Position numbers and translations under genes: made by a program | Source of the DNA: an uncultured Bacteroidales bacterium | Lineage (GTDB): Bacteria > Bacteroidota > Bacteroidia > Bacteroidales > Muribaculaceae | Reading direction: 5' to 3' | Length of the DNA: 64,000 nt | Assembly: GCA_902782465.1 (NCBI GenBank) | Contig: CACZNH010000020.1 | Coordinates: 1 to 64,000 of the forward strand | Shown: in pieces, positions 14,229 through 61,906 of the stretch | How the letters are laid out: each line of letters starts with the position of its first letter | Numbering within the stretch: position 1 is the stretch's first letter | Notes under the pieces: model-generated | What the model was told of the DNA's origin: nothing | The model's database searches: none | What the model saw: only the letters and a program-made list of their open reading frames with translations

Positions 14229-14318
14229 TAGTTCTCAGTTTTCAGTTTTCAGTTGTCAGCGGCATCCGCAATTACTGCCAACTGAAGACTGAAAACTGAA
14301 AACTGCCAACTGAAAACT
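14229..14318. repeat. TTTTCAG word repeat with mini-palindrome core
   Basis: AGTTTTC words, then TTGTCAGCGGCATCCGCAA, then the complementary CTGAAAA words, so the whole spacer can fold back on itself. The 19-base core recurs, inverted, at 36709-36730 between asnS and the pseudouridine synthase gene. Confidence 0.7.
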
Positions 14319-20593: not shown

Positions 20594-20676
20594 TTTAGTT
20601 TTTAGTTTTTAGTTTTTAGTTTTTTATAGATGCTATAGAAACTATAGAAGCTATAGATACTATAGATGCTATAGAG
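20594..20676. repeat. Iterated-word spacer (TTTTTAG then CTATAGA)
   Basis: Four TTTTTAG words are followed by about six CTATAGA-type 9-mers. The CTATAGA word recurs at 22021-22076, so both sides of the DoxX gene carry it. Confidence 0.8.
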
Positions 20677-20681
20677 GTGGT

Positions 20682-22010
20682 TCATTCTTGTTGTGACTTG
20701 CTTCTCTTAAGCCGCCTTTTATAATAGAAGTACCTGATCATGAGGTGACTGCGGTTGATGACCACCAGCACCAGCATGGCGGCGAGGTAGATGAGCATCA
20801 GGTCGGTCATGATGTCGTCGCCATTCAGGTCCTTGCCCATGTCGCTCAGTTCCACAGGCTGCTCCACATCGTCGAGCGACGAGAGGGTGCGCTTCCACAC
20901 GATGGCGCCGTCCTCGAGATAGACCACCGCCGGATTGCCGCGGGCCACCATCTTGAGTTCGCTGTCATCCATATAGTAGATGGGATAGCTTGCCATCGAC
21001 ACGTCCTTCCAGTGGTCGACCTCGGCCGGTGTAGCCGGGGTGAGGCCGATGACGTCGGCATCGGCAACCAGGGCGGCATCGGTCAGCTCGTTAAGGGCAA
21101 ATGAGTTGACAACGCCCACCTGGGACAGGTCGGGGAAGAGCAGCAGCACGGTGCGGCGGCTGTCGGCCAGCACGTCGAGGGTCACGTCATTGCCATCCTC
21201 GTCCATGATGGCGATACCGTTAGGCTTGTTGCCGTCAAGCATGATGACTTTGCCGTGAGGGCGGCGGGCATGGTAGCGGGTCACATATTCCCAACCGTCT
21301 TCCTCGTCGGGGAGGCTGTCGATGGTGAACTCCTGCTCCACGCCGTCCTTGCTGTAGATGAAGATGAACTCATCCTCGTCCTCATCGCTGTCGTCAACGG
21401 TGGTGGCGCTCACCAACCGTGTGCCGATGGGGTAGGGACGGTAGTCGATGAGCGGCTGCTTGAAGTAGCCGTAGTAGGCCACTGCCAGCACAAACGCCAG
21501 CGACAGCGCCATTACCACCCATTGTACGGCAGGCCCATATACGCCCCGCAACGACTTGTTGAAGCACAGCAGGTAGATGATGCCCAGCAGCAACAGCACG
21601 TTCTTGCCGAAGGTCGCCCAGTTGCTCAGGTGCAACGCATCGCCAAAGCAGCCACAGTCCGGCACAGCGTCCGTCAGGGCAAGCCATAGCGTCAACGGGG
21701 TCATCACCAGCATCATCAGCAATGCCAGCACGGGGGCGCTGCGGCGGTAGGCTCCCACAACGATGAGGATACCTAGGATAAACTCCAGTGCCGCCAGCGA
21801 CACGGCGAAGAACAGTGACGTATCGGTCCAGCTTCCAGCGCCCATCGCATTAAGGTAGTCGGTGATCTTGTAGCACGCTCCCCAGGGGTCTACCGCCTTG
21901 GTGAACCCTGAGAAGACGAACACGCCGCCCACAGTGAAGCGCATCAGCAGCGTCAGCACTTGACACCACTTCTCGCCTTTTACCGCATTGATGAACGCCT
22001 TGATTGTCAT
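20682..22010 (-). CDS. BT_3928-type DoxX family membrane protein
   Basis: 442 residues. The N-terminal half is a four- to five-helix DoxX/MauE-like membrane domain: RFTVGGVFVFSGFTKAVDP near residue 25, and a DCGCFGD cysteine motif near 117. A soluble domain (about 205-395) follows, then a last membrane helix near 405-425 and a basic tail RRLKRSKSQQE. The family is conserved in Bacteroidales between DUF1599 and tpiA. The membrane cysteine motif suggests a redox or quinone link, but no function is proven. Here DUF1599 is still its upstream neighbour, while the downstream place of tpiA is taken by the kinase-AAA+ gene. Confidence 0.75.
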   Translation of the reverse strand: MTIKAFINAVKGEKWCQVLTLLMRFTVGGVFVFSGFTKAVDPWGACYKITDYLNAMGAGSWTDTSLFFAVSLAALEFILGILIVVGAYRRSAPVLALLMMLVMTPLTLWLALTDAVPDCGCFGDALHLSNWATFGKNVLLLLGIIYLLCFNKSLRGVYGPAVQWVVMALSLAFVLAVAYYGYFKQPLIDYRPYPIGTRLVSATTVDDSDEDEDEFIFIYSKDGVEQEFTIDSLPDEEDGWEYVTRYHARRPHGKVIMLDGNKPNGIAIMDEDGNDVTLDVLADSRRTVLLLFPDLSQVGVVNSFALNELTDAALVADADVIGLTPATPAEVDHWKDVSMASYPIYYMDDSELKMVARGNPAVVYLEDGAIVWKRTLSSLDDVEQPVELSDMGKDLNGDDIMTDLMLIYLAAMLVLVVINRSHLMIRYFYYKRRLKRSKSQQE

Positions 22011-22020
22011 TTTTTCTTCA

Positions 22021-22076
22021 ACTATTATAGATGCTATAGTTTCAATAGATACTATAGACTTTATAGATGCTACAGT
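22021..22076. repeat. Iterated-word spacer (CTATAGAT)
   Basis: Degenerate TATAGATGCTATAG words fill the gap between the DUF1599 stop and the DoxX start. It is the same word as at 20632-20676. Confidence 0.75.
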
Positions 22077-22624
22077 TAACGATTCTTTTCCTCGTTGTGC
22101 TTGATCAGAGCAAACACGCTATAGTTAATCATGTCCTGATAGTTGGCGTCGATACCCTCGCTCACCAGCGTCTCGCCATTATGGTTTTCAATCTCCTTGG
22201 TGCGTTGGATTTTGGTCAGGATCAGGTCGGTATAGCTCGAGATGCGCATGTCGCGCCATGCCTCACCGTAGTCGGTGTTCTTGGCAATCATCAGGTCCTT
22301 GGTCTTCTGGATGAACTCGTCGTAGAGTTCCAGGGCGCGCTCACGGCTGATGTCCACCGTGTCGCTGTAACCCAGTTCGAGCTGGATGAGCCCGATGATG
22401 CCATAGTTGATGATGCCGATGAATTCGGGCCAGATGCCTTCGCCCACCTTGGTCTCGCCGTTCAGCTCCAGGGTGCGGATGCGCTTGGCCTTGATGAAAA
22501 TCTGGTCGGTCACCGAACGGGGTCTGAGGATGCGCCACGACGGGCCGTAATCCTTCATCTTGTTGATGAACAGTTCACGGCACTGGGCAATCGCCTCGTC
22601 ATATTGTTTGCTGGTATTCTGCAT
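22076..22624 (-). CDS. DUF1599 family protein
   Basis: 182 residues, cytoplasmic and helical, built from two copies of one unit: KMKDYGPSWRILRPRSVTDQ near 22 and KNTDYGEAWRDMRISSYTDL near 115, each followed by K(A/I)xRxxxE. This internal duplication is typical of DUF1599 in Bacteroidetes. The biochemical role is unknown. In related genomes it precedes the BT_3928-type gene, and it does here with a 65-bp gap. Confidence 0.75.
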   Translation of the reverse strand: MQNTSKQYDEAIAQCRELFINKMKDYGPSWRILRPRSVTDQIFIKAKRIRTLELNGETKVGEGIWPEFIGIINYGIIGLIQLELGYSDTVDISRERALELYDEFIQKTKDLMIAKNTDYGEAWRDMRISSYTDLILTKIQRTKEIENHNGETLVSEGIDANYQDMINYSVFALIKHNEEKNR

Positions 22625-36660: not shown

Positions 36661-36668
36661 TGTTATTT

Positions 36669-36742
36669 CGGTTTTCAGTTTTCAGTTTTCAGTTTTCAGT
36701 TTTCAGGGTTTGCGGATGCCGCTGACAACTGAAAACTGACAA
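36669..36742. repeat. TTTTCAG word repeat with mini-palindrome core
   Basis: Five TTTTCAG words, then TTTGCGGATGCCGCTGACA, then CTGAAAA-type words. It is inverted relative to 14229-14318 and shares its core. Confidence 0.7.
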
Positions 36743-36748
36743 CTTGGT

Positions 36749-38239
36749 TTATTCAAATGAATTCTGTTTCAAGAAGTTAACCTCTTCCTGGGTCAGGTAG
36801 CGCCAGCGGCCACGGGGCAGGTTCTTCTTGGTGAGACCGGCAAAGTAAACGCGGTCCAGCTTCACCACATGATAACCCAGGGCTTCGAAAATGCGGCGTA
36901 CGACGCGGTTGCGGCCCGAGTGAATCTCGATACCGGCCTGCTTGCGGTCGGTGGGGGAGACATAGCTCACAGCATCGGCGTGGATGGGGCCGTCATCGAG
37001 CTCAACGCCGTCGGCGATGTGCTGCATGTCCTCCTCGCTGATGGGCTTGTCGGTCCATACCTGATAGATTTTCTTCTTTACATATTGGGGGTGGGCGAGC
37101 TTGGCAGCCAGGTCACCATCGTTGGTGAGCAGGAGCACACCGGTGGTGTTGCGGTCCAGGCGTCCCACGGGATAGATGCGTTCCTCACAGGCACCCTTCA
37201 CCAGGTCCATGACGGTCTTGCGGCCGTTGGGGTCGTCGCTGGTGGTAACGGTGTCCTTGGGTTTGTTGAGCAGGATGTAGCACTTCTTCTCGGTGGTGAC
37301 GATTTCACCGTTGTACTTCACGATGTCCTTCGGGGTAATCTTCATACCGAGCTCGGTGACTACGACGTCATTGACCATGACGAGTCCCTTCTGGATATAT
37401 TCATCAGCCACACGGCGCGAGCAGATGCCGGCGTTGGCCAGGAACTTGTTCAGGCGAACCTCCATGTTGGGGTCGATAGCGGGCTCCTCATAGATGATGC
37501 GTTGGGGCTTGGGCGTGAAGCGCATCTGGGGCTTGGGACCCTGGCGCTTGGGGCGCTGCTGGTAGCCACCGGGGCGCTGCTGATAGCCGCCGGGACGCTG
37601 CTGGTATCCACCCTGACGCTGCTGGTAGCCGCCGGGACGCTGCTGGTAACCACCCTGACGCTGCTGGTAGCCGCCCTGCTGATAGCCACCCTGTCGCTGG
37701 TAACCACCCTGCTGACGGGGCTGATAGCCGCTCTGGCGCTGGTAACCACCCTGCTGACGGGGCTGATAGCCGCCCTGGCGCTGGTAGCCGCCCTGACGGG
37801 GCTGATAGCCACCCTGGCGCTGGTAACCCTGGCGCTGCTGGTAGCTGCCCTGCTGCTGTTCGGGATTCATATTCTCGCCTTCGGCATTCTCGCCGTTCTC
37901 AAGTGCATTTTGGGGTTGCTGGTAACGGGGCTGATAACCGCCCTGGCGCTGGTAACCGCCGGGACGCTGCTGGTAGCCGCCGGGACGCTGCTGATAGCCC
38001 TGACGGTGATAACCGCCGGGTCGCTGCTGGTAACCGCCTTGACGGTGATAACCTTGCTGACGGGGTTGGTAGTCTTCTTGCTGTTTGTAACCCTCAGAGT
38101 TTTCGGGTTCATCACCCTGATGCTGCTCATGGGCGCTATATTCTACCTTCTCATAGCGACCATTGTCGAATTGTTCATCAAGATTGCCATTGCTTTCACC
38201 GATTCTGGGTCTTTTCGGTTTCTTTACGTTCTCGTCCAT
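36749..38239 (-). CDS. RsuA/RluB family pseudouridine synthase with QGGY-rich N-terminus
   Basis: 496 residues from the ATG at 38239. Residues about 60-235 are a low-complexity region of QRQGGYQ / QRPGGYQ units with almost no hydrophobic residues. The enzyme follows: an S4 RNA-binding domain (about 255-315, [20 protein letters not shown]) and a catalytic domain with [20 protein letters not shown], holding the catalytic aspartate, and [17 protein letters not shown]. It isomerises a uridine in rRNA, most likely in the large subunit (RluB-like). The repeat region resembles RGG/prion-like RNA-binding tails and may bind ribosomal precursors or condense. The repeats are close at the DNA level too, so their number could vary. 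Confidence 0.85.
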
Positions 38240-51788: not shown

Positions 51789-52275
51789 ACCCAAACAGCC
51801 GCTCACGGCCAGTCAAGCACTCAACCGTGCCGCGGCCTTGTGTGCCCGCAGCGAGCAGTCCTCGGGTGACATCCGCGAGAAACTGCTCAAGTGGGGACTG
51901 TGCAGCAATGATGCAGCTCACGTCCTGCAGCAGCTGGTGGAACAGGGATTTATTGATGACAGCCGTTATGCCAGGGCCTTTGTCAAGGACCGCTTTGCCT
52001 TCAATGGTTGGGGGCGCATCAAAATCGCACACCAGCTTCGCACGAAGGGCATCCCCAGCGATGCCATCGACGAGGCGATGACTGCCATCGACGAGGAACG
52101 CTACCGCGAACGGTTGGCGGAACTGCTCCAAGCCAAGTGGCGTACCGTCAAGGACCGCGAACCCCGTGCAGCATGGGCGGCGATGATGCGGTTTGCCGCA
52201 TCCAGGGGCTTCGAGGCGTCAATAGCGGGAGAATGTGTCAAACAAGTGACCCGGATTGATGTGGAAGACGATTAG
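51781..52275 (+). CDS. recX: Regulatory protein RecX
   Basis: 164 residues. It limits or modulates RecA filaments. The three-helix repeat plan is visible: ALCARSEQSSGDIREKLLKW, VEQGFIDDSRYARAFVKDRF then GRIKIAHQLRTKGI, and RAAWAAMMRFAASRGFEASI. It lies between a patatin and comF with overlaps on both sides rather than beside recA, which is at 29222 on the opposite strand. Confidence 0.88.
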   Translation: MNKPKQPLTASQALNRAAALCARSEQSSGDIREKLLKWGLCSNDAAHVLQQLVEQGFIDDSRYARAFVKDRFAFNGWGRIKIAHQLRTKGIPSDAIDEAMTAIDEERYRERLAELLQAKWRTVKDREPRAAWAAMMRFAASRGFEASIAGECVKQVTRIDVEDD

Positions 52276-52966
52276 ACAATGGCTGGGGGCTGCCACCGAC
52301 GTGGTCTTGCCGCGCATCTGTCCGGTGTGCGGGCAAACGCTTGACGGCGACGAGGCATGGCTGTGCCGCAAGTGCCTGGCAGGATTGCCGCGTACGCGCT
52401 ATGAAGAGGTGCCGTTCAACAGCATGGAGCAGCACTTTGCCGGCAAGGTGCCCATCGAACGAGCCACGGCCTACTTCTTCTACGAGAAAGGCTCGCCCTA
52501 CGCATCTATCCTTCACGACATCAAGTACCATGGTATCCCCACCATGGGGCGCTGGCTCACCTCTCGCGCGGTGCAAGACATGGCCGCTAGCCATTTCTTT
52601 GACGGCATCGATGTGGTCACCGCCGTCCCCCTGCATCGCAGCCGTCTTGCCCACCGTGGCTACAACCAGAGCAAATACCTCGCCTGCGGCATCGCCGATA
52701 GCCTGAACATACCATATGTAGAAGCCTTAAAAGCCGTACGTCCACATACCACTCAGACCCATAAAGGCGCCCTTGAACGCTGGCAAAACATCCAGGACAA
52801 CTACGTCCTGAAAAAAGACGCCGACCAGTTGGCCGGCAAACACATCCTCCTTGTCGATGACGTCGTGACGACCGGTTCCACCCTCACCGTCTGCGCCATC
52901 CTGCTGAAAAGCATCCCTAATGTGAAGGTTTCACTCTTCACTCTCGCCGCTGCGCGACTCGAGTAA
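52259..52966 (+). CDS. comF: ComF family phosphoribosyltransferase-like protein
   Basis: 235 residues from the ATG at 52259 (a TTG one codon upstream is unlikely). An N-terminal zinc ribbon, CPVC near 22 and CRKC near 37, then a type I PRTase domain with YHGIPTMGRWL, VPLHRSRLAHRGYNQSKYLA near 121 and the PRPP loop ILLVDDVVTTGSTL near 200. ComF proteins assist DNA uptake in competent bacteria; in Bacteroidetes the role is less clear. It overlaps the end of recX by 17 bases, completing a three-gene unit patatin-recX-comF. Confidence 0.9.
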   Translation: MWKTIRQWLGAATDVVLPRICPVCGQTLDGDEAWLCRKCLAGLPRTRYEEVPFNSMEQHFAGKVPIERATAYFFYEKGSPYASILHDIKYHGIPTMGRWLTSRAVQDMAASHFFDGIDVVTAVPLHRSRLAHRGYNQSKYLACGIADSLNIPYVEALKAVRPHTTQTHKGALERWQNIQDNYVLKKDADQLAGKHILLVDDVVTTGSTLTVCAILLKSIPNVKVSLFTLAAARLE

Positions 52967-52976
52967 ATTTGAAACA

Positions 52977-53064
52977 GTGGAGGAATTTTTCATTGTCAAA
53001 ATGAAAAATTGTGGAAAGGTGGAGGAGTTTTTTATTGCATCGCAATAAAAACTGTGGAGAAGAA
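52977..53064 (-). repeat. Two-hairpin cassette, left, flanking the four-helix-bundle gene
   Basis: Minus-strand reading: TTCTTCTCCACAG (53052-53064), hairpin A TTTTTATTGC / GCAATAAAAA (53029-53051), CCTTTCCACA (53010-53019), hairpin B AATTTTTCATT / AATGAAAAATT (52984-53010), CCTCCAC (52977-52983). The same linkers in the same order, with unrelated stems, form the right cassette in opposite orientation. Confidence 0.75.
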
Positions 53065-53115
53065 TAATTATGTGACAGTAAATATAGTTTTAAACACAAG
53101 ATAAAAATTTAGAAT

Positions 53116-53484
53116 ATGGACATGATATATCATTTTGAACGGCTTGAGGTCTTTAAGCAAGCCCGCCAGTTGGTGAAGGAAATCTACAAACTCAGCATGA
53201 AATTTCCTTCAGAAGAGCGTTTTGCGCTTTGCAGCCAGCTGCGACGCGCTGCGATTTCAATCCCATCGAACATCGCTGAAGGTGTGGGCAGGCTGTCACC
53301 AAAGGAAACTACACATTTTCTTGAAATATCTTATGGGTCCTTGATGGAAACCTACTGCCAGTTGCAAATAGCATTAGATCTCATGTATATTACAGAAGAG
53401 GACCTAAATCAAGTTAAACCCATGATTTTTGCAACATCCCGAATGCTTAATGGTCTGCACAAATCATTCTTGTCCAAGCAGTAA
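53116..53484 (+). CDS. Four-helix-bundle (S23 / rRNA intervening-sequence type) protein
   Basis: 122 residues. The family signature is clear: FERLEVFKQARQLVKEIYKL (8-27), FALCSQLRRAAISIPSNIAE then GVGR (about 36-59), HFLEISYGSLMETYCQLQIA (about 67-86). Members are found in 23S rRNA intervening sequences, beside diversity-generating retroelements (Avd) and as stand-alone genes; they are basic and bind nucleic acid. Here the gene is free-standing and bracketed by a perfect 13-bp inverted repeat (53052-53064 and 53499-53511) that forms the inner ends of the two palindrome cassettes. This suggests a small mobile or RNA-processing unit. Confidence 0.85.
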   Translation: MDMIYHFERLEVFKQARQLVKEIYKLSMKFPSEERFALCSQLRRAAISIPSNIAEGVGRLSPKETTHFLEISYGSLMETYCQLQIALDLMYITEEDLNQVKPMIFATSRMLNGLHKSFLSKQ

Positions 53485-53498
53485 AAAAGGAAGGTTAT

Positions 53499-53622
53499 TT
53501 CTTCTCCACAGTCGTTGCGCTACAGCGCAACGACACCTTAACCTTTCCACAAAAAAAACGGCACCAATAAGGTGCCGTTTTTGCCTCCACAGTTAACGGC
53601 GCCCCACTTGGGCGCCGTTAAC
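53499..53622 (+). repeat. Hairpin cassette, right, flanking the four-helix-bundle gene
   Basis: TTCTTCTCCACAG (53499-53511), hairpin A GTCGTTGCGCT / AGCGCAACGAC (53511-53534), CCTTTCCACA (53542-53551), hairpin B (53554-53582), CCTCCAC (53584-53590), then a third hairpin GTTAACGGCGCCC / GGGCGCCGTTAAC (53592-53622). Linkers match the left cassette; stems do not. Confidence 0.8.
53554..53582. terminator. Bidirectional intrinsic terminator (hairpin B of the right cassette)
   Basis: A perfect 12-bp stem AAAAACGGCACC / GGTGCCGTTTTT with a 5-base loop between the four-helix-bundle gene and rpoZ. Confidence 0.85.
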
Positions 53623-53625
53623 TTA

Positions 53626-53958
53626 TCAAAATTCCTCTTTTTCTTTCGCCAGGTTGCGGTAGGCGAGTTTGTCTTCCAGATATTCTTGGGTCGCTATCAG
53701 CGTGGGCTTGGGCAGTTTCTCGTAATACTTCGAGATTTCTATCTGCTCACGGTTCTCGCTGATTTCCTCAAGGTTGTCGTTCAGGGTGGCAAACTCCTGA
53801 AGCTTCTTCTCAAGGTCCGACTTCATCTCGGCGGCAATCTGGTTGGCACGTTTGCTGATGATGCAGACGGTCTCATAGATGTTGCCCGTGGGTTCTGCCA
53901 TCTCGATGATGTCATGAACGGTAGTGGTGAGTGGCGCGTTAGTCTTCTTGTAATCCAT
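53626..53958 (-). CDS. rpoZ: RNA polymerase omega subunit, Bacteroidetes type
   Basis: 110 residues. The Bacteroidetes omega/Rpb6-like signature is present: MDYKKTNAPLTTTVHDIIEM, GNIYETVCIISKRANQIAAE (about 26-45), then a charged helix and PTLIATQEYLEDKLAYRNLA near the end. It stabilises assembly of the polymerase. It follows bamD by 52 bp on the same strand, an order usual in Bacteroidales. Its stop is four bases from the last hairpin of the right cassette. Confidence 0.85.
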   Translation of the reverse strand: MDYKKTNAPLTTTVHDIIEMAEPTGNIYETVCIISKRANQIAAEMKSDLEKKLQEFATLNDNLEEISENREQIEISKYYEKLPKPTLIATQEYLEDKLAYRNLAKEKEEF

Positions 53959-54010
53959 GTTTTTGTGACTTGAATTAATTTATAATGTGTTGTTGTTTTC
54001 GCTTGACGGG

Positions 54011-54817
54011 TCAATTGCCGTTGACGTGGCGGTTGGCAATCTTGAAGATGTTGTCGGCCTCCTTGCGCATCTTGCTGTCAGGGTAGTCGTTGATGAACGA
54101 GTAATACTCGTCGATGACGGTGCGGAAACGTTCTACCTTCTTCTCGGGAACGCTCTCGCTGGCCTCTTTGAAGCGGGCCTTGAGCACCAGCATCTCCAGT
54201 TCCTCTTTATACTTGCTGTAAGGGTAAGCCTTGATGGCGTTCTGGGCAGTGATGACAGCGCTCTCGTAGTTGTTGCCCATATAGTTGCCCAGGTTATAGT
54301 ACAGCGTGGCATTCTGCAATTCCTTGAGCACCAGTTTGTCCTGTAACTCAAACAGGGCGCTTTGGGCCTGTGATGCCTTGTCGCTCGACGGGAAATAGTC
54401 CAGGAAGGCCTGCAGCTCTTCCATGGCGCGGATGGTCTCGGTCTGGTCCAGCTGGGAATCGGGCGAATCCAGATAGAAGCCGTAGCCCCCATAGAATCTT
54501 GCCAACTCGGCGTACTGGCCGCGCGGATAACGCTGGTAATACTGCTTGAAATAGGAACCGGCGCTGATGTAGTCCTTGTTCTCATAGTGGCTCAGTCCCA
54601 ACAGGTAGAGCGACTCCTCGGCGTTAGGGGTGCCGCGGAAGATGGGAACCAGCTCGGTCAGGATGGTAGTAGCCTGAGCGTAACGTTTGTTCTCAAAGGC
54701 CTTCTTGGCGTAGGCATACTTGTATTCAAGGTCACTGCTCTTCAGCACCTTGTTATACTCGCCGCAGCTCGCCATCACGCAGGCCAGAGCCAATATTATC
54801 GTCAATTTCTTGATCAT
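54011..54817 (-). CDS. bamD: Outer-membrane assembly lipoprotein BamD
   Basis: 268 residues from the ATG at 54817 (MIKKLTIILALACVMASC); a slightly longer frame starts at 54835. Lipobox VMASC, then about five TPR-like repeats (for example YAYAKKAFENKRYAQATTIL, LGLSHYENKDYISAGSYFKQ then YYQRYPRGQYAELARF). BamD helps BamA fold barrel proteins into the outer membrane from the periplasmic side. It is upstream of rpoZ in the same operon. The length fits the family. Confidence 0.9.
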   Translation of the reverse strand: MIKKLTIILALACVMASCGEYNKVLKSSDLEYKYAYAKKAFENKRYAQATTILTELVPIFRGTPNAEESLYLLGLSHYENKDYISAGSYFKQYYQRYPRGQYAELARFYGGYGFYLDSPDSQLDQTETIRAMEELQAFLDYFPSSDKASQAQSALFELQDKLVLKELQNATLYYNLGNYMGNNYESAVITAQNAIKAYPYSKYKEELEMLVLKARFKEASESVPEKKVERFRTVIDEYYSFINDYPDSKMRKEADNIFKIANRHVNGN

Positions 54818-59659: not shown

Positions 59660-59705
59660 TCTAAAAGCTAAAAGCCTAAAGCCTAATAGCTTACTAAAAG
59701 CATAA

Positions 59706-61580
59706 TTACTTCATCACCTTGTTGGCAACCTTGGTGCCGTCGGTGTAGGTGGTAACGACGATGGTCATGCCGTTGGGCTGAGCCATCTCCTGACCCATAG
59801 CGTTGAAGTAGCGTACGCCGGCAACAGCCTTCTGGCCATTGAGCTCGCTTACTGCGGTGCAGTCCGATACGATGAACTCCTCGGGAACGATGCCGGAATT
59901 CTCCTTCTCGGGGCTAGTAGCGTAAGCCTCGATGTTGTAGTGGCCATTCTCCGTGAACATCATCTTGCCATCATATACAGCCCAATCGCTCCAGGTGCCA
60001 TTCTCGAACTGAACGCGATAGTAGATAACTGCATCCTCATCCACGCAGGTGATCTCAACATACTTCTCGTTGTACTTGCCGGTGGTGATGTCGTACTCGG
60101 GAGCGGGGGTAATCTCACGCGTGGTGGTGAAGATGGTGCTCTCGGTCCAGTCACTCTCCTTCTCTTCGTTATAAGCCTGTACCTGTACCTCGTAGGTGGT
60201 CTCGGGAGTCAGACCCTCGATGGTATAGAAAGGCTCGTCAAGGCCGTTAACATAGGTCCACTCGCCCTCGGGATTGCCGGGAATTACAACGCTGATGTCA
60301 TCCAGGAAGAAGTAGTACTGGTCTTCACTGTCAAAGTGGCGGAAAGCAAAGCGGGCATTACCCCTCAAGTTGGCATACGGAGTCAAGTCAATGGTGTAGT
60401 ATTGACCAGCGCCCTGGTAATAGCCATCCACAGCTTCGGTCTCGCCCATAATCTCAACCCAGCTCTCAGTGTTATCCACATCGGGAATCAGGTAAACGGC
60501 AAAGTTCTCAGGGAAGTAGTAGGTACCGGCCCAGAAAGTCAGCATGCCGCCTTCCTTGATCTCAACCTCGGGAGTGATCAGGTATTCGTCAGGATTGAGG
60601 GCACCGTCATTACCGACGCTTGCCGAGTAGAATACTCTTGTGCCATCAGGAGCACTCTCACCCAGGGTGGTAATACCCCAGCTGTTGCCGTCACCGTCAG
60701 CGTCCCAGATCATCCAGTCGTCCAGGCTCTCATCGGCCTCGGCACTCCAGTGGATGGTACTTGTTGTATTGGGATCGTAAACCCTGTAGCGCAGGTTCCA
60801 TGCAGCGTCGTCGGTGTCGGTCCATTCTACGTCAGCATAGACATCGCCGGGATAGGCAGTCAGCTCCTCGGGAGTCGTGGGATCGGGAACATATACCTCG
60901 TCGGGATCGATGGTGATGTCATCGACAACCAGGATGAATTTGTCCGTCACGTTGTAGTGGCGGATGGCGATGCAACCCTCCTGACCGGCATAGGCGCTCA
61001 GGTCAAACTTGTACTCGGTCATTTCGCCGGTGGTGGTCACGTCAACACCTACCTTCTCAAAGGCATCCATGCTGGTCGGAGTGCCAACGCAAACATAAAT
61101 AGCGAATACCTCTTCGGCATAGCTGGGATCCTGGCCACAAGCCCACAACGTCAGGGTGCCACCCAGGTTCACAACAGGCGTAATCAGCCAGTTGTCGGGC
61201 GTAAGAGCAGTACCGCCTTGAGTGCCGTCGTCGTTGTTGTGATAGCTCTCAGAGGCAATAACACCGTCACCGCCGTGGGTGGTGAGGTTACCGCTGCCGG
61301 TATTGATGTGCTGGTACCAGTTGTAGCCGTCACCGTCGTTGTCGAGAGCCATCCAGTTATCCATCTGGGCTTCGTCCTCAAAGTCCCAAGTCACGGCGTT
61401 CTCACCCTTGGTCATCGACATGTACTTGCCAATCTTGCTAAAGTCCGAGGACTTGATTTGAACGCTTGCAACCTGGCCGTGGCCACGAGTTAACATTAGA
61501 GGCAGACCGGTCTTCTCAATGGCCTGCGTCATGGGGATGGCCAGAGCGGCCATCAAAACACTAAATAAAAATTTCTTCAT
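59706..61580 (-). CDS. Secreted cleaved-adhesin (choice-of-anchor J) protein with T9SS-like tail
   Basis: 624 residues with a signal peptide (1-20, MKKFLFSVLMAALAIPMTQA). Two cleaved-adhesin / choice-of-anchor J domains, about 60-232 (WDFEDEAQMDNWMALDNDGD, NWLITPVVNLGGTLTLWACG, GCIAIRHYNVTDKFILVVDD) and about 270-440 (SLDDWMIWDADGDGNSWGIT, YLITPEVEIKEGGMLTFWAG), each followed by a fibronectin III-like stretch. Then TAVSELNGQKAVAGVRYFNA and MGQEMAQPNG, with KVMK as the last residues, the same tail class as the proteins at 2049 and 22781. It is probably surface-exposed and binds matrix or glycan. It is the first of three tandem paralogues. Confidence 0.85.
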   Translation of the reverse strand: MKKFLFSVLMAALAIPMTQAIEKTGLPLMLTRGHGQVASVQIKSSDFSKIGKYMSMTKGENAVTWDFEDEAQMDNWMALDNDGDGYNWYQHINTGSGNLTTHGGDGVIASESYHNNDDGTQGGTALTPDNWLITPVVNLGGTLTLWACGQDPSYAEEVFAIYVCVGTPTSMDAFEKVGVDVTTTGEMTEYKFDLSAYAGQEGCIAIRHYNVTDKFILVVDDITIDPDEVYVPDPTTPEELTAYPGDVYADVEWTDTDDAAWNLRYRVYDPNTTSTIHWSAEADESLDDWMIWDADGDGNSWGITTLGESAPDGTRVFYSASVGNDGALNPDEYLITPEVEIKEGGMLTFWAGTYYFPENFAVYLIPDVDNTESWVEIMGETEAVDGYYQGAGQYYTIDLTPYANLRGNARFAFRHFDSEDQYYFFLDDISVVIPGNPEGEWTYVNGLDEPFYTIEGLTPETTYEVQVQAYNEEKESDWTESTIFTTTREITPAPEYDITTGKYNEKYVEITCVDEDAVIYYRVQFENGTWSDWAVYDGKMMFTENGHYNIEAYATSPEKENSGIVPEEFIVSDCTAVSELNGQKAVAGVRYFNAMGQEMAQPNGMTIVVTTYTDGTKVANKVMK

Positions 61581-61729: not shown

Positions 61730-61906
61730 CCTGCAAATGCAGCAAAAAAATCAGGCGGCCCGACTATGGGTCGCCTGATAGATTTGATAGCTAGTCGCTA
61801 ATAGCTGATAGCTAATCGTTTACTTCATCACCTTAACAGCGGTGGTGGTGCCGTCGGTGTAGGTCGTTACGACGATGGTCATGCCGTTGGGCTGAGCCAT
61901 CTCCTG
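61730..61906. repeat. Tandem duplication: tail and terminator, copy 1
   Basis: 177 bp, nearly identical to 63810-63986 (offset 2080). It covers the secretion-tail coding end, the iterated ATAGCTAGTCGCTAATAGC words and the terminator hairpin ATCAGGCGGCCC / GGGTCGCCTGAT (61750-61779). Confidence 0.95.

Follow-up and report, generated by a model that had tools for sequence, protein, structure and literature searches.

A PF05635 gene between inverted arrays of short repeats in a Muribaculaceae contig: probably a derived copy of a small mobile unit

The 64,000-nucleotide stretch of contig CACZNH010000020.1 analysed here (the window) contains, between comF and the gene of an RNA polymerase omega-type subunit, a small gene of the S23 family (PF05635) that is enclosed by mirrored linkers and hairpins. 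This locus raises the question of whether gene and surroundings form one unit and, if so, what kind of unit this is. The reading preferred here, to which a probability of roughly 0.6 is given, is that the locus represents a derived copy of a small, widely distributed mobile unit of the S23 or intervening sequence (IVS) type, delimited by inverted arrays of ~7-bp repeats and accompanied by gene-less derivatives resembling REPINs (doublets of repetitive extragenic palindromic (REP) sequences forming hairpins).

Inverted arrays of ~7-bp units around PF05635 genes

In the window, the inner ends are formed by a perfect inverted repeat (TTCTTCTCCACAGT at 53499-53512, complement at 53051-53064), which measures 14 bp instead of the 13 bp given in a preliminary description of the locus. 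The linker CCTTTCCACA at 53542-53551 has its complement at 53010-53019, while CCTCCAC at 53584-53590 is found in complement twice on the left (52977-52983 and 53019-53025). The central claim of that description, linkers shared in inverted orientation around an S23-like gene, is thus confirmed. The left/right inverted alignment score is 30; for 553 ordinary genes from genomes bearing a PF05635 gene, the median is 19 and the 95th percentile 25, and six of them score above 30. The units are of GTGGAGR type in the left arm and its complement in the right one; their GTGGA core recurs, and hairpins set most of them ~42 bp apart. When 52967-53590 is folded as RNA in silico, base pairing joins the linkers of the two arms (38 inter-arm pairs), and the four hairpins protrude as side arms.

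The family was covered by 219 loci in three sets, namely 74 from the genus and order, 117 further ones and 28 from the class to which a Deefgea genome belongs. Genus/order loci are best-scoring matches (one locus per genome, then 40 regions), so that weak PF05635 members are under-represented, and five rows were left out of arm scoring (two duplicates, one weak match, two with short flanks). The further loci comprise species contigs of many phyla (best 80 of 586), viral contigs and cyanobacterial plasmids, with 5 of 122 rows left out for short flanks; 2 of 30 Deefgea-class loci were left out as well. Near-identical viral contigs were kept in the arm-score counts of 117 and 219 loci and removed for the G.U test and the period counts described below.

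Most genus/order loci have the gene flanked on either side by short degenerate repeats, in arrays that are inverted relative to each other; the unit varies by locus, while left matches right. An inverted-arm score above 30 was reached by 56 of the 74 genus/order, 66 of the 117 further and 17 of the 28 Deefgea-class loci, in total 139/219 compared to 6/553 control genes. Measured against a null made from the flanks of other loci, 57/74 genus/order loci exceeded the 95th percentile and 13/74 the 99th, the tail of this null (99th percentile 55, maximum 362) being inflated by units that loci of the same site have in common. For Deefgea-class loci the corresponding numbers are 17/28 and 7/28. Among the further loci, the null 99th percentile was exceeded by the inverted score in 48/81 species contigs, 17/24 viral contigs and 8/12 cyanobacterial plasmids, and by the direct-repeat score in 9/81, 3/24 and 1/12, respectively. 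Of 213 distinct loci, those with a clear array gave 7 as best period in 89/102 left and 67/77 right flanks, with a median of 4.7 copies. Among 145 arm pairs scoring at least 30, 130 have an upstream arm rich in G on the sense strand; downstream arms are usually C-rich. The association of gene and inverted arms recurs in many phyla. Hence, the linkers of the window are best read as units of ~7-bp repeat arrays, and the proposal that conserved linkers plus hairpins constitute the ends does not extend to the family, where the ends are degenerate ~7-bp arrays with a locus-specific unit.

The viral contigs, taken from IMG/VR (L184-L206), bear PF05635 genes with inverted arms, the count of 17/24 including near-copies; a tblastn search with the window protein gave no match at E 1e-5 in 50,697 phage records. 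On cyanobacterial plasmids, three PF05635 genes (L208, L209 and L217; inverted arm scores 61, 56 and 29) are located between cas6 and cas4 or between cas10 and cmr3 and could wrongly pass for CRISPR accessory genes.

Occupied sites, empty sites and gene-less derivatives

Of the 30 loci closest in their omega protein, counting that of the window, 20 have comF adjacent. Four of these comF/omega junctions hold the gene (the window locus L037, L039, L052 and L056) and 16 do not: 14 are plain gaps of 34-270 bp, L042 contains another insert of 1.2 kb, and L045 a single array of CCTAAAA units. With a wider search, L335 and L336 could be added to the occupied sites. At this site the unit comes or goes as a block, in agreement with the suggestion of a small mobile unit made of a gene plus inverted ends. 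The same comparison of orthologous loci with and without the unit, which had been recommended as a check, revealed that a hairpin similar to the one at 53591-53623 remains at most junctions without the gene; hence, this outermost hairpin, initially assigned to the right cassette, is the host terminator of the omega operon and lies outside the unit. The gene is oriented with comF in the window and against comF in L039, L052 and L056, so that the unit has either been inverted or inserted twice.

In a tree of 75 proteins, genes from the same site mostly cluster, with support values of 87/88 for the comF-site clade (window and L039 being sisters at 100/82), 100/88 for the tRNA-Ile-site clade (11 rows) and 99/96 for the sdh-site clade, which includes another family; genes at the truA site do not group, and two sites with two members each are weakly supported. 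The proportion of synonymous differences exceeds that of nonsynonymous ones (pS>pN) in all 86 same-site pairs, and the ratio of the respective rates (dN/dS) has a median of 0.08 in the 16 pairs with dS<1.5. The gene is under purifying selection and is mostly inherited in place.

Arrays of the same kind also occur away from the gene, 15 of them with period 7 in the window. With arrays beside the gene left out, period-7 arrays amount to 5.6-23.4 per 100 kb in five genomes with the gene and 0.8-4.7 in five without it (113 in 844 kb versus 10 in 624 kb), while for periods 6, 8 and 9 both groups have roughly the same rates. A stricter detector, with arrays beside the gene counted, gave 31 versus 0 arrays, none of them in gene-bearing G010. 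In a survey of the genus covering 101 genomes, 71 of 91 with the gene and 1 of 10 without it contained one or both of two array patterns (TTAGTNN, 63/91 versus 1/10; GTTTAGN, 42/91 versus 1/10); many of the host genomes are incomplete. Unit type agrees as well: GTTTAGN arrays have a median of 37.5 in genomes with GTTTAGN gene arms (n=10) versus 0 (n=19; p 1e-4), and TTAGTNN arrays one of 41.5 in genomes with TTAGTNN gene arms versus 5 (p 0.012), gene arms being counted in both cases.

The host genome furthermore carries miniature elements, in which a fixed core is enclosed by inverted arrays; two array pairs of the window have this core in common (Table 1). With at most one mismatch the core occurs at 28 places, 24 of which have arrays on both sides as judged by inspection; with up to two mismatches, 88 places compare with 36 for a reversed control pattern. 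The 24 miniature elements are dispersed inverted doublets sharing gene-flank repeats, as expected of a REPIN system, and one of them adjoins the host's PF05635 gene at the pyrG/yidC site (L001/L368); with the window's own PF05635 gene they share no unit. A stricter core pattern is present in 12 of the 101 genus genomes, all of which match PF05635 at least weakly. Empty orthologous spacers are plain for two copies (L369 versus G024, L382 versus gene-free G011) and less clear for a third one (L384 versus G024). Gene-less arrays and, in the host genome, miniature elements built from units of this kind are dispersed in gene-bearing genomes. The miniature elements tend to occupy the spacer from a stop codon to the next start codon and, considering open frames of at least 80 codons, 22 of 24 are oriented like the gene to their right. 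As their arms are mirror images, this bias must reside in the core or in the mode of insertion; an involvement of RNA is suggested by it but not proven.

Table 1 Features of the window unit, its neighbours and two miniature elements
Feature	Position	Strand	Remarks
Left (upstream) arm	52976..53064		GTGGA-type units at 52977-52983, 53010-53025, 53051-53064; two hairpins between
Hairpin L2, left arm	52984..53010		perfect, 11-bp stem
Hairpin L1, left arm	53029..53051		perfect, 10-bp stem
PF05635 / TIGR02436 four-helix-bundle gene (S23; 23S rRNA intervening sequence protein, IVP)	53116..53484	+	122 aa
Right (downstream) arm	53499..53593		complementary units at 53499-53512, 53542-53551, 53584-53593; two hairpins between
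Hairpin R1, right arm	53511..53534		perfect, 11-bp stem
Hairpin R2, right arm	53554..53582		perfect, 12-bp stem, terminator-like
Terminator of omega-subunit operon (host; outside unit)	53591..53623		perfect hairpin, 14-bp stem
comF, left neighbour	52256..52966	+	stop codon ~10 bp from left arm
RNA polymerase omega-type subunit (RNA_pol_Rpb6), right neighbour	53626..53958	-	
Gene-less miniature element	14230..14318	+	CAGTTNT array, core CAGCGGCATCCGCA, AACTGAA array; also at orthologous place in G036
Second gene-less miniature element, same family	36666..36744	-	other sequence at orthologous place in G036

Arms that change together and competing explanations

For same-site pairs with both arm scores at least 26, the arm match within a locus was compared to the match of the same arm between loci. 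The former was higher in 72 of 79 pairs, in a comparison that favours the within-locus match for reasons given below. Below 70% protein identity this concert was observed in 17/17 pairs (0.73 versus 0.44 and 0.35), and between 70 and 85% in 49/52. Both arms diverge from their orthologues, yet they stay matched to each other. A mechanism that renews palindromes, as envisaged in the preliminary description, therefore fits the two arms, which change jointly, and fits the hairpins less well.

Matched arms could alternatively be kept by selection at the RNA level, an explanation regarded as rather unlikely. Here, the arms would pair in the transcript and RNase III would excise the unit as an intervening sequence from a polycistronic mRNA, RNA selection maintaining the complementarity. 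The make-up of the unit indeed equals that of the Coxiella 23S IVS (complementary termini, S23 open reading frame and heptamers upstream of it) as outlined in the available parts of its description, the arms pair in predicted folds, among the 12 units on cyanobacterial plasmids several are located between genes of a single operon, and the orientation bias of the miniature elements (22 of 24) points the same way. However, G.U-compatible arm mismatches are not in excess over those of A.C type in the 145 arm pairs (178 versus 204, p 0.20), so that copying of one arm from the other accounts for the data at least as well as selection on RNA pairing; besides, the window unit itself stands between convergent genes, as an observation on this one locus.

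Somewhat less probable still is that the gene is a passenger, merely landing or persisting between heptamer arrays and inverted pairs which arise by polymerase slippage and template switching. Other genes are sometimes bracketed as well (the six controls above), gene-less arrays outnumber PF05635 genes, and the L045 junction has an array without a gene. On the other hand, arrays are nearly absent from the gene-free genomes examined, the unit type agrees between gene arms and dispersed arrays, and the association is seen again in many phyla.

As for the hairpins, the preliminary description of palindromes between the linkers was accurate for the window, where four perfect ones have stems of 10-12 bp, but the selection on hairpin structure that it derived from them is not borne out. 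A general enrichment of hairpins around PF05635 genes was tested and rejected: at least two perfect upstream hairpins (stem at least 9 bp) were found at 2 of 74 genus/order loci (L003, L039) versus 0 of 145 others. Both are comF-site loci, and of the L039 pair one hairpin is the host terminator. Perfect inter-unit hairpins are characteristic of the comF lineage (in the window, in L039/L333 and in L335), to which hairpin-rich arms are peculiar; the genome of L335 is closely similar in its flanks, but the gene there is interrupted by a stop and the upstream hairpin has been lost. In the closest hairpin-bearing pair, L333/L335, the stems are near-identical and no excess of compensatory changes was found. 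One loop differs in the downstream hairpin GTCCATGTGC..GCACATGGAC, reading CATT in one locus and its exact reverse complement AATG in the other, apparently by inversion between the stem halves. Terminator sequences are a plausible source of the inter-unit hairpins. That hairpins are the functional ends, REP-like or transposon-like, with incidental linkers, is highly improbable, since for all the four perfect hairpins of the window and the hairpin-bearing arms of L039/L333 and L335, PF05635 genes in general show no enrichment of hairpins around them, the arms match in their linkers and not in their hairpins, and one hairpin belongs to a host terminator.

In L030 and L087, which belong to another lineage of the genus, repeat units take turns with mini-hairpins such as GCCCGNAGGGC and CGCGCTNCGCG, and a similar one, AAGCGCTTCGCTT, occurs in L293 of the Deefgea-class set.

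Several observations weigh against the mobile unit. With regard to the arms, 80 of the 219 PF05635 loci do not score above 30, the window (exactly 30) being among these, and a clear array on a given side is present in less than half of the 213 distinct loci (102 left, 77 right). At a protein identity of at least 0.85, just 6 of 10 pairs show concert, and the within-locus match is biased upward because arm segments were chosen for left/right similarity; the missing G.U-type asymmetry on the sense RNA has to be added here. With regard to dispersed arrays, gene-free G012 is an exception for both patterns (4 array hits), and genomes with only weak PF05635 matches contain TTAGTNN-type arrays in 5/10 and GTTTAGN in 2/10 cases. 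G005 has TTAGTNN arms and no hits, while G020 and G034 have more than 100 hits without such arms among the fetched loci. Most gene-less arrays are single, an inverted partner nearby being found for just 2/22, 1/35 and 1/12 in three other genomes. Since gene-free genomes may be kin and three of the five in the rate comparison come from other families, the association between gene and arrays is not phylogenetically corrected. Finally, the unit encodes no transposase, nuclease or reverse transcriptase, and no target duplication was resolved for the unit or at the empty sites of miniature elements.

The S23 protein, a possible mechanism and known systems

In profile searches, the window protein matches PF05635 (E 7.4e-37, 126.3 bits, cut-off 33.8) and TIGR02436 (E 9.7e-34, 115.9 bits, cut-off 24), in addition to two related S23-type models and, weakly, Avd, the accessory protein of diversity-generating retroelements (DGRs). 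Its predicted structure is a four-helix bundle with a predicted local distance difference test score of 95.4, and the closest structure in the Protein Data Bank is 2GSC (template modelling score 0.90); Foldseek also matches the fold to 2RLD (BT_0352 of Bacteroides thetaiotaomicron) and to DGR Avd (4DWL, 8UB7), both alone and in DGR ribonucleoproteins. The structure of an S23/PF05635 protein had been solved by 2006. According to the accessible parts of the literature, a Xanthomonas S23-family structure is pentameric and S23 proteins have no known function (PMC4990558), PF05635 is related to Avd (PMC10053308), and IVP occurs in rRNA insertions of bacteria of the candidate phyla radiation (PMC11270868). 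With a 102-residue stretch of the crystallised Xanthomonas protein (xcc0516) as query, relatives were found at 67% identity at most. An Rfam scan of 52500-54200 gave six matches, all well under gathering scores.

From these relationships we infer that the S23 protein binds the repeat units. As a pentamer, judging by the solved homologue, and as kin of the RNA- and reverse transcriptase-binding Avd, it might bind them in single-stranded RNA or DNA with annealed arms. Within such a panhandle, a host polymerase could copy one arm from the other, by which both arms would be renewed, and the protein could aid the spread of gene-less panhandles in trans, as has been proposed for the REP-associated tyrosine transposase (RAYT) acting on REPINs. 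How the unit moves is likewise a matter of inference, and it encodes no transposase. More tentatively, PF05635 genes with inverted heptamer arrays might represent minimal mobile elements, forming a class of their own across many bacterial phyla, that move and renew their ends although they lack a polymerase, nuclease or transposase, perhaps by way of pentamer-bound RNA or single-stranded DNA panhandles. Such a class could be the source of orphan intergenic heptamers in cyanobacteria, Xanthomonas and Bacteroidales, with rRNA IVSs as a branch that settled in rRNA.

The closest known system is the 23S rRNA IVS encoding S23p in Coxiella and Leptospira, which shares the protein family and the complementary termini enclosing the S23 reading frame; in the parts of PMC4990558 available, the Coxiella IVS is regarded as selfish, with complementary ends, excision by RNase III and tandem heptamers upstream of the S23 frame. 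While that IVS resides in an rRNA gene, the window unit lies between comF and the omega-type subunit gene, and as far as the description of the IVS goes, array arms on both sides, a unit varying by locus and dispersed gene-less derivatives are particular to the present system. REPINs and RAYTs, according to excerpts of PMC3116915, similarly consist of short inverted doublets dispersed in intergenic regions and related to the repeats near a non-amplifying gene. In contrast to this gene, the RAYT being an HUH Y1 transposase, the unit protein is a four-helix bundle without a transposase match in the profile scan; moreover, degenerate ~7-bp arrays shift by lineage here and several gene copies occur per genome. 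DGRs share the Avd fold with the window protein, but no reverse transcriptase was detected among the five locus proteins scanned (the PF05635 gene product, ComF, omega, a RecX-like and a YfiO-like protein), template and variable repeats not being searched for. Classical insertion sequences and miniature inverted-repeat transposable elements have fixed terminal inverted repeats and a target-site duplication; the arms of the window unit are inverted without being fixed in sequence.

Cyanobacterial heptamers also go by the term short tandemly repeated repetitive sequences. The intergenic heptamers GGGAATC of Xanthomonas and GGGGA(C/T)T of Nostoc, as reported in the main text available for PMC4692102, resemble the present arrays in their period of 7, G-richness, intergenic position, occurrence as inverted convergent pairs (70 and 75 cases) and, in Xanthomonas, mostly four units. 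This likeness is one of description, the terms 'S23', 'four helix' and 'xcc0516' having 0 occurrences in that main text. TAACTGA repeats of Beggiatoaceae, present also in some cyanobacteria and Bacteroidetes, are likewise intergenic tandem heptamers but mainly direct repeats upstream of start codons, and 'S23' and 'four helix' have 0 occurrences in the accessible portion of PMC4679880. For intergenic heptamers, the published accounts, in their available parts, suggest polymerase slippage and no other origin. A general link of the S23 family to inverted arrays or dispersed heptamers was not found stated in the portions of published work covered (among them PMC10910872 and PMC4666352, which contain nothing on it there), which does not prove its absence in print. 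Such a link would provide both sides with a testable partner, and in the co-evolving inverted arms nature would offer an example of ends that are renewed by copying.

Further repeats are found elsewhere in the window. An ordinary open frame at 20681-22010 is bracketed, as if similarly enclosed, by arrays with a unit of 9 bp (TATAGATGC type) in inverted orientation (20625-20675 and 22027-22077), and another open frame at 59705-61580, one of the six controls scoring above 30 (inverted score 38), is flanked by period-7 arrays at 59661-59691 and 61787-61816. A long tandem repeat with 21-bp and 42-bp units extends over 37550-38053.
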